Source of the DNA: Pediococcus claussenii ATCC BAA-344
Lineage (GTDB): Bacteria; Bacillota; Bacilli; Lactobacillales; Lactobacillaceae
Assembly (NCBI RefSeq): GCF_000237995.1
Contig: NC_016605.1
Span: 496,001 to 560,000, forward strand
Direction: 5' to 3'
Length of the DNA stretch: 64,000 nt
Positions 51,688-54,657 of this stretch are shown here, piece after piece. The notes below the pieces were generated by a model. It searched no databases, was not told where the DNA came from, and worked only from the letters and a program-made list of their open reading frames with translations. The position numbers were made by a program, and so were the translations under genes. Numbering within the stretch: position 1 is the first letter of the stretch; each line of letters opens with the position of its first letter.

Positions 51688-51698
51688 AATAATTATTG

Positions 51699-51748
51699 AA
51701 ATGAACGCTTATAGATTATATTAAAAATCTTGGGGGTTCATTTTATTT
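51699..51748 (+). terminator. Terminator of uvrBA
   Basis: AAATGAAC (51699-51706) pairs with GTTCATTT (51736-51743), loop closed further by G/C pairs, followed by TATTTTA. Moderately strong. Confidence 0.6.
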
Positions 51749-51782
51749 TAAATGGTTTTAAAATTTTGAAAAGAAAAAAGAA

Positions 51783-51802
51783 ACACCCGGGTGTGATATA
51801 AT
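51783..51802 (+). promoter_or_regulatory. Extended -10 promoter with a perfect palindrome before rapZ
   Basis: TATAAT at 51797-51802 is preceded by TG-A (extended -10) and by the perfect 12-bp palindrome ACACCCGGGTGT at 51783-51794; no -35 hexamer lies at the right distance. The palindrome covers the -35/-10 spacer, where a repressor could block the polymerase. Confidence 0.6.
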
Positions 51803-51831
51803 ATGGAAAGGATTTACGAGGGGGAAATGAA

Positions 51832-52719
51832 ATGGCAAAAAATTTACAGTTGGTAATCGTGACTGGAATGAGTGGTGCTGGAAAAACAGTAACCATGCAG
51901 AGCTTTGAAGATCTTGGATACTTTGTAGTTGATAACATGCCGCCAGCCTTACTACCGAAGTTTTTTGAATTGATAACCGAGGCTGGAAATATTGAAAAAG
52001 TGGCCCTAGTTGTAGATTTAAGGTCCCGTACGTTTTATGACCAACTCCTTTCAATGCTTACTGGCGATCGTCGTTTCGGGCAGGATGTCGATACAGAAAT
52101 CCTATTCCTTGATGCTTCTGATGAAGAATTGATTGCTCGTTATAAAGAAACAAGGCGTGCTCATCCGTTGGCAATGGACGGACGAATCGCAGACGGTGTT
52201 CGAAAAGAACGTGAATTATTAGCGCCTCTAAAAACCGATTCACAATTTATTATTGATACGACAAAGATGACACCACGCGAATTACGTGAAAAAATTTTTG
52301 CTCATTTCTCAGATAATAAAACTGCTAAGTTTCATGTAGAAATTTTATCTTTCGGTTATAAGTATGGGCTTCCAATTGATGCTGATATTGTAATGGACGT
52401 AAGATTTTTGCCAAATCCTTACTATATTCCTGAGTTAAGAAATCATACTGGAATGGATAAAGATGTTTATGATTACGTAATGAATCAGCCAGCAACTGCC
52501 AAGTTTTATGAACATTTTATTGCATTACTCAAAGAGACACTTCCTGGATACGAAAAAGAAGGGAAATCTAATTTAACGATTGCAATTGGTTGTACAGGTG
52601 GACAACATCGTTCGGTAGCAATTGCCGAAAGGCTAGGCAGTGATTTGAAGGATATATATCCTACTCATGTTCAACACAGGGATGCGTTGAAGCGAAAGGA
52701 AACGGTAAACCGCTCATGA
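51832..52719 (+). CDS. rapZ: RapZ/YvcJ family nucleotide-binding protein
   Basis: P-loop ATPase/GTPase of 295 residues. Walker [10 protein letters not shown] near 12-20; [12 protein letters not shown] and the C-terminal [18 protein letters not shown] with HxxR are diagnostic. In Escherichia coli RapZ controls glucosamine-6-phosphate synthase through small RNA decay; in Bacillus YvcJ affects competence. GAGGGGG precedes the ATG. The cluster rapZ-yvcK-whiA is a classic Firmicutes operon; its stop overlaps the yvcK ATG. Confidence 0.95.
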
Positions 52720-53711
52720 TAATGGGGAAGAGGCCGAAAATAGTTGTAATTGGTGGAGGTACTGGGTTGCCAGTCGTCCTTAATGGATTACACAAGAAAA
52801 ATGCTGACATAACAGCCATCGTGACCGTTGCAGATGACGGGGGTTCGTCTGGAATCATTCGAGATTATGTGAACGTTGTTCCGCCAGGGGATATTCGAAA
52901 CGTAATGGTTGCATTGTCAGATTCTTCGAGTACCTTTAAAGATATTTTTCAATATCGGTTTAATAGTAATGACAGTTTTCTATCAGGTCATGCGATTGGA
53001 AATCTTATCATTGCTGCGCTATCAGAAATGAAGGGTGGCATTGGTGCTGCTATTCAAGAATTGTCAGAAATGATGGAAGTTAAGGGAAATGTTTTTCCTG
53101 CAAGCGATGAGCCACTTGTATTGCATGCCGAGTTCACAGATGGGACGCAACTTGCTGGTGAAGCGGAAATCACAGCTGCACATAAGACAATTCAGCGTAT
53201 TTGGGTTGAAACCAATCCGTGGAGTGAAGTAAAGAAACCTAAAGCCATCAAAGGTGCTGTTCAAGCAATTTTAGAGGCCGATCAAATTATTTTAGGACCA
53301 GGTAGTTTATATACTAGTATTTTACCTAATTTGATGATTGACGATATTGGTCAAGCTGTTTTGAAAACTAATGCTGAGATTGTATATATCTGTAATATTA
53401 TGACTCAAAAAGGTGAAACAATTGGATTTTCAGATGCTGATCATGTTCGCACCTTGAATAGACATTTGGGGAAAAATTTTGTTGATACTGTCCTTGTTAA
53501 TACGAAAATTGTACCAGAAGATTATATGGATTTTCATCGTTATGACGAAGTTTCTAAACAAGTCACACATGATTTTAATGGCTTGCGCAAAATGGGATGT
53601 CGAGTTATTTCCGAGGACTTTTTGTTGTTAAGAGATGGTGGGGCCTTCCATAATGGAACACAAGTAGTAGAAGAATTGATGAATATTTGTAGTAATCCAA
53701 AGCGAAAATAA
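52716..53711 (+). CDS. yvcK: Gluconeogenesis factor YvcK (GlmR)
   Basis: UDP-sugar-binding regulator that steers carbon to cell-wall precursors, needed for growth on gluconeogenic carbon in Bacillus. The 331-residue protein of the CofD-like fold has [16 protein letters not shown] near 10-25, [14 protein letters not shown] near 38-51, [12 protein letters not shown] and [13 protein letters not shown], all family motifs. The ATG overlaps the rapZ stop (ATGA); a second ATG two codons on is also possible. Confidence 0.95.
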
Positions 53712-53727
53712 AAGGGAGGTGAGCGAT

Positions 53728-54657
53728 TTGTCATATGCTAGTGAAGTAAAAAAGGAATTAACTGGTCTAGAAGTTCATAAGGGGAATGCTAAGGCTGAGC
53801 TAATGGCGTTAATCCGCATGAATGGATCGATTGGGATTTCAAATCGAGATTTAATTTTGAATATCCAAACAGAAAATCCTGCTATTGCACGACGAATTTA
53901 TTCACTTTTAAAAGAATTCTATCAAATTGATGCTGAGTTAAGCGTGCGCCGCAAGATGAAGTTGAAAAAGAATAACGTTTACGTTGTTCGGTTGCGTAGC
54001 GGGGTTAAAGAATTATTAAAAGATCTTGATATTTTAGAAGATGATTTTCAAATTAATGAGATGGTTCCAGATGGAGTACTCACTTCTGAAGCAGAAATAC
54101 GTTCCTATTTGCGAGGCGCTTTTTTAGCTGGGGGTTCTGTTAATAATCCTGAAACAAGTCGTTATCACCTTGAAATTTATTCACTTTACGAATCACATAA
54201 TGATATGATCGCAAAATGGATAAATAAGCATGACTTGAATGCTAGAACTACTGAACGAAGAAGTGGTTATATAACTTATTTGAAGGAAGCAGAGCATATT
54301 GCCGATTTTTTACAATTAATTGGCGCAACAACGGCTATGCTCAAATTTGAAGATATGCGAATCATGCGCGATATGAGAAATTCAGTTAATCGTTTAGTTA
54401 ATTGTGAAACTGCCAACTTAAATAAAGTAGCCAACGCTTCAATGAAGCAGATCGACAATATTGAATTTATTGATGATCAGGTTGGATTAGGTGAATTACC
54501 ACCTAAATTGCGTGAAGTTGCTGAGGCTAGATTAGCGCATAAAGAGGTTAGTTTAAAAGAACTTGGCGAGTTAGTTCCAGGAGGGCCTATTTCAAAGTCT
54601 GGTATTAATCATAGATTGCGAAAAATAAATCAACTCGCGGAACAATTACGAGCATAA
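53728..54657 (+). CDS. whiA: DNA-binding protein WhiA
   Basis: Protein of 309 residues with an N-terminal LAGLIDADG homing-endonuclease-like fold (no nuclease role) and a C-terminal helix-turn-helix ([27 protein letters not shown], about 272-298). In Bacillus it affects chromosome segregation, division and metabolism. The TTG at 53728 gives the family start [12 protein letters not shown] and has GGGAGG 8 nt before it; a GTG nine bases earlier lies inside that site. Last gene of the rapZ operon. Confidence 0.94.

Follow-up and report, generated by a model that had tools for sequence, protein, structure and literature searches.

What reads the GC-rich palindrome in the promoter of the rapZ-yvcK-whiA operon of Pediococcus claussenii, and is the palindrome itself what is read? 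The question arises from a 64-kb stretch of the genome (64,000 nucleotides, called the window here), for which a sequence-only reading had proposed the perfect palindrome to be the operator of an unknown repressor. WhiA, encoded by the third gene of the operon, is present in most Gram-positive bacteria. To our knowledge, its DNA targets in Firmicutes are poorly defined. The features of the locus, all within the window, are as follows.

51697-51745, plus strand: stem-loop followed by a U-rich tail, the probable uvrA terminator, between uvrA and the operon (from folding).
51780-51787, plus strand: GAAACACC, with one mismatch (position 3) to the published WhiA core GAYACRCY (core from PMC11701221).
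51780-51790, plus strand: conserved box GAAACACCCGG (family form GAHACRCCHGG), the predicted WhiA operator site (from conservation).
51783-51794, no strand: perfect palindrome ACACCCGGGTGT, to which the box and the TRTG extension both contribute.
51792-51802, plus strand: extended -10 promoter TGTG-A-TATAAT (TGTGATATAAT), without a -35 (from sequence; most box-bearing relatives have a similar element after the box).
51832-52719, plus strand: rapZ (yvcJ), operon gene 1 (Pfam RapZ-like_N and RapZ C-terminal domain).
52716-53711, plus strand: yvcK (glmR), operon gene 2 (Pfam PF01933, CofD).
53719-54657, plus strand: whiA (yvcL), operon gene 3, the predicted reader of the box (Pfam WhiA_N, LAGLIDADG_WhiA and HTH_WhiA).

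The layout described in the sequence-only reading, a palindrome with TATAAT 2 bp after it, a TG extension and no -35, was borne out by direct reading. TGTG occupies 51792-51795 and TATAAT 51797-51802, 2 bp 3' of the palindrome, and the best -35 hexamer before rapZ matches TTGACA at 3 of 6 positions (spacers of 14 to 23 bp). In Gram-positive bacteria, an extended -10 consists of TRTGn before TATAAT, and a -35 is then unneeded. TGTGATATAAT at 51792-51802 has TRTGn before TATAAT and lacks a -35, and is predicted from its sequence to be a promoter of this kind. The rapZ ribosome-binding site, GAGGGGG, is located at 51818. The upstream stem-loop folds at -17.5 kcal/mol (z -5.57); 51697-51745 was not picked up by a simple terminator scan, and is probably the terminator that sets uvrA apart from the rapZ operon. 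The placement of the promoter before rapZ-yvcK-whiA was likewise correct, the products matching RapZ, CofD/YvcK and a three-domain WhiA in Pfam; yvcK is the name that we presume for gene 2 from its neighbourhood and recall. The top solved-structure match of the whiA product is 3hyi (DUF199/WhiA), and among RapZ, YvcK and WhiA a Pfam DNA-binding domain is present in WhiA only. By RapZ, the nearest named relatives are Paucilactobacillus, Ligilactobacillus and Lentilactobacillus.

The palindrome by itself is weak evidence, because the window contains 20 perfect 12-bp palindromes (at least 8 G+C in 3) and the 12-mer at up to 2 mismatches was found once against 0.68 expected in the shuffled window. 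The search for more genome copies that had been proposed as a check returned a single place: with at most 1 mismatch, ACACCCGGGTGT occurs only here among the 9 contigs of P. claussenii. A joint search of 397 family genomes for the 12-mer and its -10, allowing up to 2 mismatches, gave matches in 8, at rapZ in 5 and elsewhere in 3, and only P. claussenii matched exactly. An additional exact 12-mer was seen in G164 (L036), where rapZ is not adjacent.

Conservation upstream of rapZ, the other proposed check, went against the palindrome, of which an exact copy is present in 1 of 93 operon upstreams, and in favor of a different element. Instead of a dyad, the relatives conserve an 11-bp asymmetric box, GAHACRCCHGG, adjoining an extended -10 similar to TRTGnTATAMT. 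The upstreams of rapZ were taken from 12 genomes of the genus and from 65 near-full-length rapZ matches of an 81-genome family sample, with 4 in both. Counted in 400 bases upstream of the operon in each of the 81 Lactobacillaceae genomes, the strict box was present in 52, belonging to 30 of 40 genera, and absent in 29; in 100 dinucleotide-shuffled sets the number averaged 0.07 and never exceeded 1, and on the opposite strand it was 0 of 81. A looser form of the box was found in 68 of the 93 upstreams, including all 12 of the Pediococcus genus. At eight named Lactobacillaceae loci, the strict box was observed in 5 and a GGAAC form in 2, with none in a metagenome-assembled genome of Ligilactobacillus. 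At position 3, the 68 operon boxes carry C in 41 cases, A in 22 and T in 5; about two thirds therefore match GAYACRCY there, and P. claussenii has A.

The spacing of the box shows that it is an element of its own. The usual distance between box and -10 is 5 or 6 bases; in 8 of the 68 boxes the gap is 10 to 27 bases, while the box sequence is kept, and the box and the -10 are therefore separate elements. This count covers gaps of at least 10 bases only, 2 further boxes among the 68 having no -10, and in G060 the true -10 lies even farther away. In the displaced cases the left box is retained and the right side varies (CTTGA, CATAG, CACGT), with G069 as a partly symmetric exception. The slot of a GTTGT-like auxiliary WhiA motif coincides with the extended -10 in the common arrangement, so that such a motif is indistinguishable from it there; GTTGTG is present in three displaced cases (G014, G084, G085). 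The claim that an operator is located here is thus supported, in the form of a conserved box of the protein-binding type that persists when the -10 is moved. The box also goes with the operon rather than with rapZ alone. A rapZ match is absent in 14 of the 81 genomes; in four of these (G027, G042, G069, G076) the box and a -10 stand directly before yvcK-whiA, and the other 10 belong to a clade with altered WhiA.

Two side observations belong here. In genus g8 (G018, G056, G086; L219-L221), no operon box was found although the WhiA helix-turn-helix (HTH) and the rpsJ box are both of the ordinary type; perhaps autoregulation has been lost. In genus g29 (G039:C1:992676 and G074:C3:340562; L217, L218), the rapZ match is partial, with internal stop codons, so that the operon start had to be estimated; these rapZ genes appear to be decaying or misread.

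Symmetry around the box, by contrast with the box itself, is not a conserved property of the orthologous promoters. With any centre allowed, 58 of the 68 boxes have at most 6 symmetric bases and 6 have at least 12, namely those of G005, G006, G008, G040, G075 and P. claussenii, 4 of the 6 being from the Pediococcus genus. In the common arrangement, symmetry requires both an A at position 6 of the box and TGTG instead of TATG. The two features are not associated (A/TGTG 6, G/TGTG 4, A/TATG 18, G/TATG 9; Fisher p 0.72, the -10 pattern used also taking in at least two displaced cases, G014 and G084). The dyad therefore recurs no more than is predicted if box and -10 vary independently. The palindrome is best read as incidental, arising where the box (ACACCCGG) runs into the extended -10 (GTGTG); the lack of a conserved dyad agrees with the asymmetry of a WhiA site.

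Genome-wide, the compound element is nearly confined to this operon. The 81 genomes contain 33 matches to the pattern GAMACRCCNGGN{0,2}TRTGNTA, 32 of which are at the operon, and 0 to its reversed control. The pattern ACACNCCNGGN{0,2}TRTGNTA has no occurrence in the P. claussenii genome, its register not fitting this genome. GAMACRCCNGG occurs 5 times in P. claussenii: in the rapZ promoter, in the leader of rpsJ (S10 ribosomal-protein operon), and 3 times within coding frames. The second of these copies is the following.

G000:C1:1265511-1265521, minus strand: rpsJ leader box of P. claussenii (loci L135 and L202; from sequence match).

This copy, GACACGCC, fits GAYACRCY exactly. A box is present in the rpsJ leader of all 81 genomes, in eight forms, GACACACCCGG in 40, GACACGCCCGG in 17 and six variants in the remaining 24, as counted with a search pattern written after the sites had been seen. 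It lies within a 28-base conserved block, 24 bases of which exceed 1.2 bits. No extended -10 follows the rpsJ box, and no matching right half is found at the rpsJ copies. Of the 100 copies of GACACRCCCGG in the 81 genomes, rpsJ leaders account for 57, the present operon for 24 and other places for 19; the reversed control gave 24, and these last 19 copies are at control level. Position 3 is C in 81 of 81 rpsJ boxes, as against A in 22 of the 68 operon boxes.

The rpsJ copy is situated inside a leader of the Rfam RF03136 (S10-Clostridia) type. Among three rpsJ loci, L156 scored 37.1 bits, above the gathering threshold of 35.1, and L105 (29.9) and L135 of P. claussenii (28.8) fell below it. A closing stem of the leader shows covariation. 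The box is outside the predicted pairs and maps to the variable hairpin of the model, whereas the rapZ copy is upstream of its -10. Because the box is inside a structured leader, its conservation at rpsJ may be partly RNA-driven. A reader of DNA best explains the sharing of the box, since the copy at the operon precedes its own -10; for the same reason an RNA element at rapZ was rejected. The rpsJ block GGTTGCGACACRCCCGGCCGCTTTGCCA, in S10-Clostridia-like leaders (L105-L185), has TTTGCCA at the place expected of a WhiA auxiliary motif.

WhiA is the best candidate for the repressor that the sequence-only reading had called unknown, in view of the core match, the recurrence at rpsJ and the published work on its homologs. 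In Enterococcus faecalis, according to the available text of PMC10986989, deletion of yvcL (whiA) raised yvcJ and glmR, and purified YvcL shifted a fragment of the operon promoter; vancomycin stress raised operon expression, less so in the yvcL mutant, and OG1RF_10503 was a second target. The three-gene operon with the regulator as gene 3 (there yvcJ-glmR-yvcL) is shared with P. claussenii, and in E. faecalis the regulation is negative, the regulator binding the promoter fragment directly. The difference is one of resolution: the fragments there were of about 275 bp, no mapped site being given in the text available, and here a site is predicted to the base, across the order and with a copy at rpsJ. 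The terms 'palindrom' and 'inverted repeat' are absent from the main text of PMC10986989.

The core itself comes from Mycoplasma gallisepticum, where, as the available text of PMC11701221 has it, WhiA represses and binds GAYACRCY in the rpsJ promoter region, with the HTH on the core and the homing-endonuclease-like domain on an auxiliary GTTGT; ATP loosens this second grip, mutation of Lys-216 and Ser-258 abolishes core specificity, and the core is noted before rpsJ in many bacteria. The asymmetric core is the same as here; the M. gallisepticum site lies 22 nt downstream of the start site and the operon site of P. claussenii upstream of its -10. No operator of a Lactobacillales rapZ-yvcK-whiA operon was found in the text available of PMC11701221, and 'Lactobac' is absent from its main text. 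In Streptomyces, WhiA is described in the accessible part of PMC3781837 as binding an asymmetric GACAC motif as a monomer and as binding its own promoter. GACAC is present in many operon boxes, which are likewise asymmetric, and an own-promoter site is predicted here as well. The Streptomyces system differs in its regulon of about 240 transcription units, in the positive autoregulation suggested for S. coelicolor, and in the position of whiAp2 inside the upstream gene, the present promoter standing before the whole operon (PMC3781837, same part). B. subtilis WhiA has been described, in the text available of PMC10714963, as not a classic transcription factor. The main text of a paper on lactic acid bacteria regulons (PMC3616900) contains no WhiA, rapZ, yvcJ, yvcK or rpsJ, and no description of this operator was found in the one open-access library searched.

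Boxes and WhiA type were found to go together in the family. Where the WhiA HTH scored at least 112 bits, a cut picked after the scores were known, the strict operon box was present in 52 of 63 genomes, and below it in 0 of 17; G038, with no WhiA HTH match, stands outside this split. In a comparison of 72 of 80 HTH sequences, at the two columns chosen as the strongest of the alignment, the 58 genomes with C at position 8 of the rpsJ box carry Cys in 56 and Leu or Phe in 58, and the 14 without this C carry Ala in 14 and Met in 13. On the YvcK tree (50 of the 81 genomes, no g19 genome) the box changed once, and these counts are therefore not independent; the HTH and box relation is a single, if striking, co-change. 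Judged by spacing alone, Lys-216 and Ser-258 of M. gallisepticum WhiA would fall in the same domain as the co-changing columns. The genera g2, g6, g7, g16 and g39 (L203-L210, L213, L214) lack both a rapZ match and an operon box, and their rpsJ box is GACACGCGCGG; their WhiA HTH shows Cys to Ala and Leu to Met, with a three-residue deletion except in g7. In genus g18, the Ala variant is combined with an unchanged box.

The box is very probably the operator through which WhiA represses its own operon, rapZ-yvcK-whiA, and binding at this site is predicted in P. claussenii. The C-terminal HTH of WhiA would bind the asymmetric box GAAACACCCGG, and the LAGLIDADG-like domain would reach over the adjoining extended -10 (TGTGATATAAT). 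Transcription would start about 7 bases past TATAAT, near 51809, which would place the box at about -29 to -19, in the place of the -35 and spacer. Because the box replaces this region in a promoter dependent on the extended -10, the site would be open to either WhiA or RNA polymerase, not to both at once. The operon would then be repressed when WhiA is abundant or in a DNA-gripping state, and candidates for the relieving signal are ATP, as in the Mycoplasma case, and cell-wall stress, as in the Enterococcus case. Against the WhiA reading stand the A at core position 3 of P. claussenii in place of the published Y, the 29 family genomes lacking the strict operon box, the genera g8 and g18, the single origin of the HTH and box co-change, the B. 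subtilis case, the families of the order and of other Bacilli in which the element is scarce or was not found, the possible RNA share in the conservation at rpsJ, and the M. gallisepticum rpsJ site, which is downstream of its start site.

Several other explanations of the element have to be weighed. A palindromic operator bound by a dimeric repressor other than WhiA would account for a perfect GC-rich dyad in AT-rich surroundings and for the 6 of 68 boxes with at least 12 symmetric bases, some of them odd-centred; it is highly improbable, as most boxes have little symmetry, the bases that make the symmetry are unassociated, the right half varies where the -10 is displaced (G069 again being partly symmetric), and the rpsJ copies have no right half at all. 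WhiA may also be the reader of the box and yet act as an activator, as was suggested for S. coelicolor whiAp2. The missing -35 of the rapZ promoter would agree with activation; an extended -10 with TATAAT, on general knowledge, should need no activator, the box would overlap the polymerase, and its distance to the -10 differs among genomes. Streptomyces WhiA activates and represses almost equally, with positive autoregulation suggested (available text of PMC3781837), but the nearest experimental case, E. faecalis, is one of repression (available text of PMC10986989), and activation is considered very unlikely here.

It is extremely improbable that the box is no operator but a promoter element for RNA polymerase or an alternative sigma factor. 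Its near-fixed distance to the extended -10 in most box-bearing genomes and the lack of a -35 in P. claussenii would suit such an element. However, 32 of the 33 compound elements are at this one operon, away from the operon and rpsJ the box by itself is at control level, the gap to the -10 reaches 10 to 27 bases in 8 of 68 boxes, and the rpsJ box has no extended -10 after it.

With autorepression by WhiA as the preferred reading, the rpsJ leader box suggests that WhiA would also damp the S10 ribosomal-protein operon. Across much of Lactobacillales, WhiA may be essentially a two-site regulator, using one 11-bp box for its own operon and for the S10 operon; this wider proposal is tentative, its chances being put slightly short of even. 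If it is true, ribosome synthesis and the control of cell-wall precursors would be yoked through the abundance and the ligand of WhiA. The strength of the two sites may differ: A at position 3 is tolerated in operon boxes but not in rpsJ boxes, and in a two-site regulator the rpsJ site would therefore be the stronger and autorepression would set in later. Autoregulation by WhiA has already been reported in the relative E. faecalis; what is new is the site predicted to the base, its spread across the order and the copy shared with rpsJ. The box gives the E. faecalis report a likely type of site, and a predicted operator at this resolution makes the role of WhiA in lactic acid bacteria directly testable. 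The shared box also hints at a tie between cell-wall control and ribosome production in these bacteria through one small regulator.

At the level of the order, a similar compound pattern was found in 83 of 158 genomes of the order, with 1 in the reversed control. It is present throughout or nearly throughout in some families (f2 20/20, f4 19/19, f39 16/18, f42 17/20) and rare in others (f3 3/20, f40 3/19, f43 1/20, f41 0/1); f1 gave 4/21 with a pattern that excludes the GAA form. In all 30 listed loci (f40 3, f39 16, f42 11), rapZ starts 56-118 bp past the start of the box; in f2 and f4, the position relative to rapZ was read in 4 genomes. Families f3, f40 and f43 are mostly without the element; in f3, at least one of the matches lies away from rapZ. 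In 33 other families of Bacilli, represented by one genome each, no GANACRCYNGG was found within 100 bases before rapZ. Bare cores were equally frequent on the two strands (11 against 12 on the other strand) in all 40 genomes read of the 108 other rapZ-matching genomes, with 2 kb upstream of each; where rapZ is deep in an operon, the promoter is possibly farther away. In one of these other Bacilli, G491, the bare core GATACACT stands at -43 of rapZ.

Extra copies of the compound form GAYACACCAGG-W-TATGnTA were observed in f2 (G498:C1:1237996, G527:C1:35096, G602:C12:2016, G609:C1:1962140) and in f3 (G424:C1:685901, G571:C30:2231). The rapZ gene was mapped in G424 and G498, and the extra copies there are far from it; a further WhiA target is a possible explanation of these f2 and f3 sequences.
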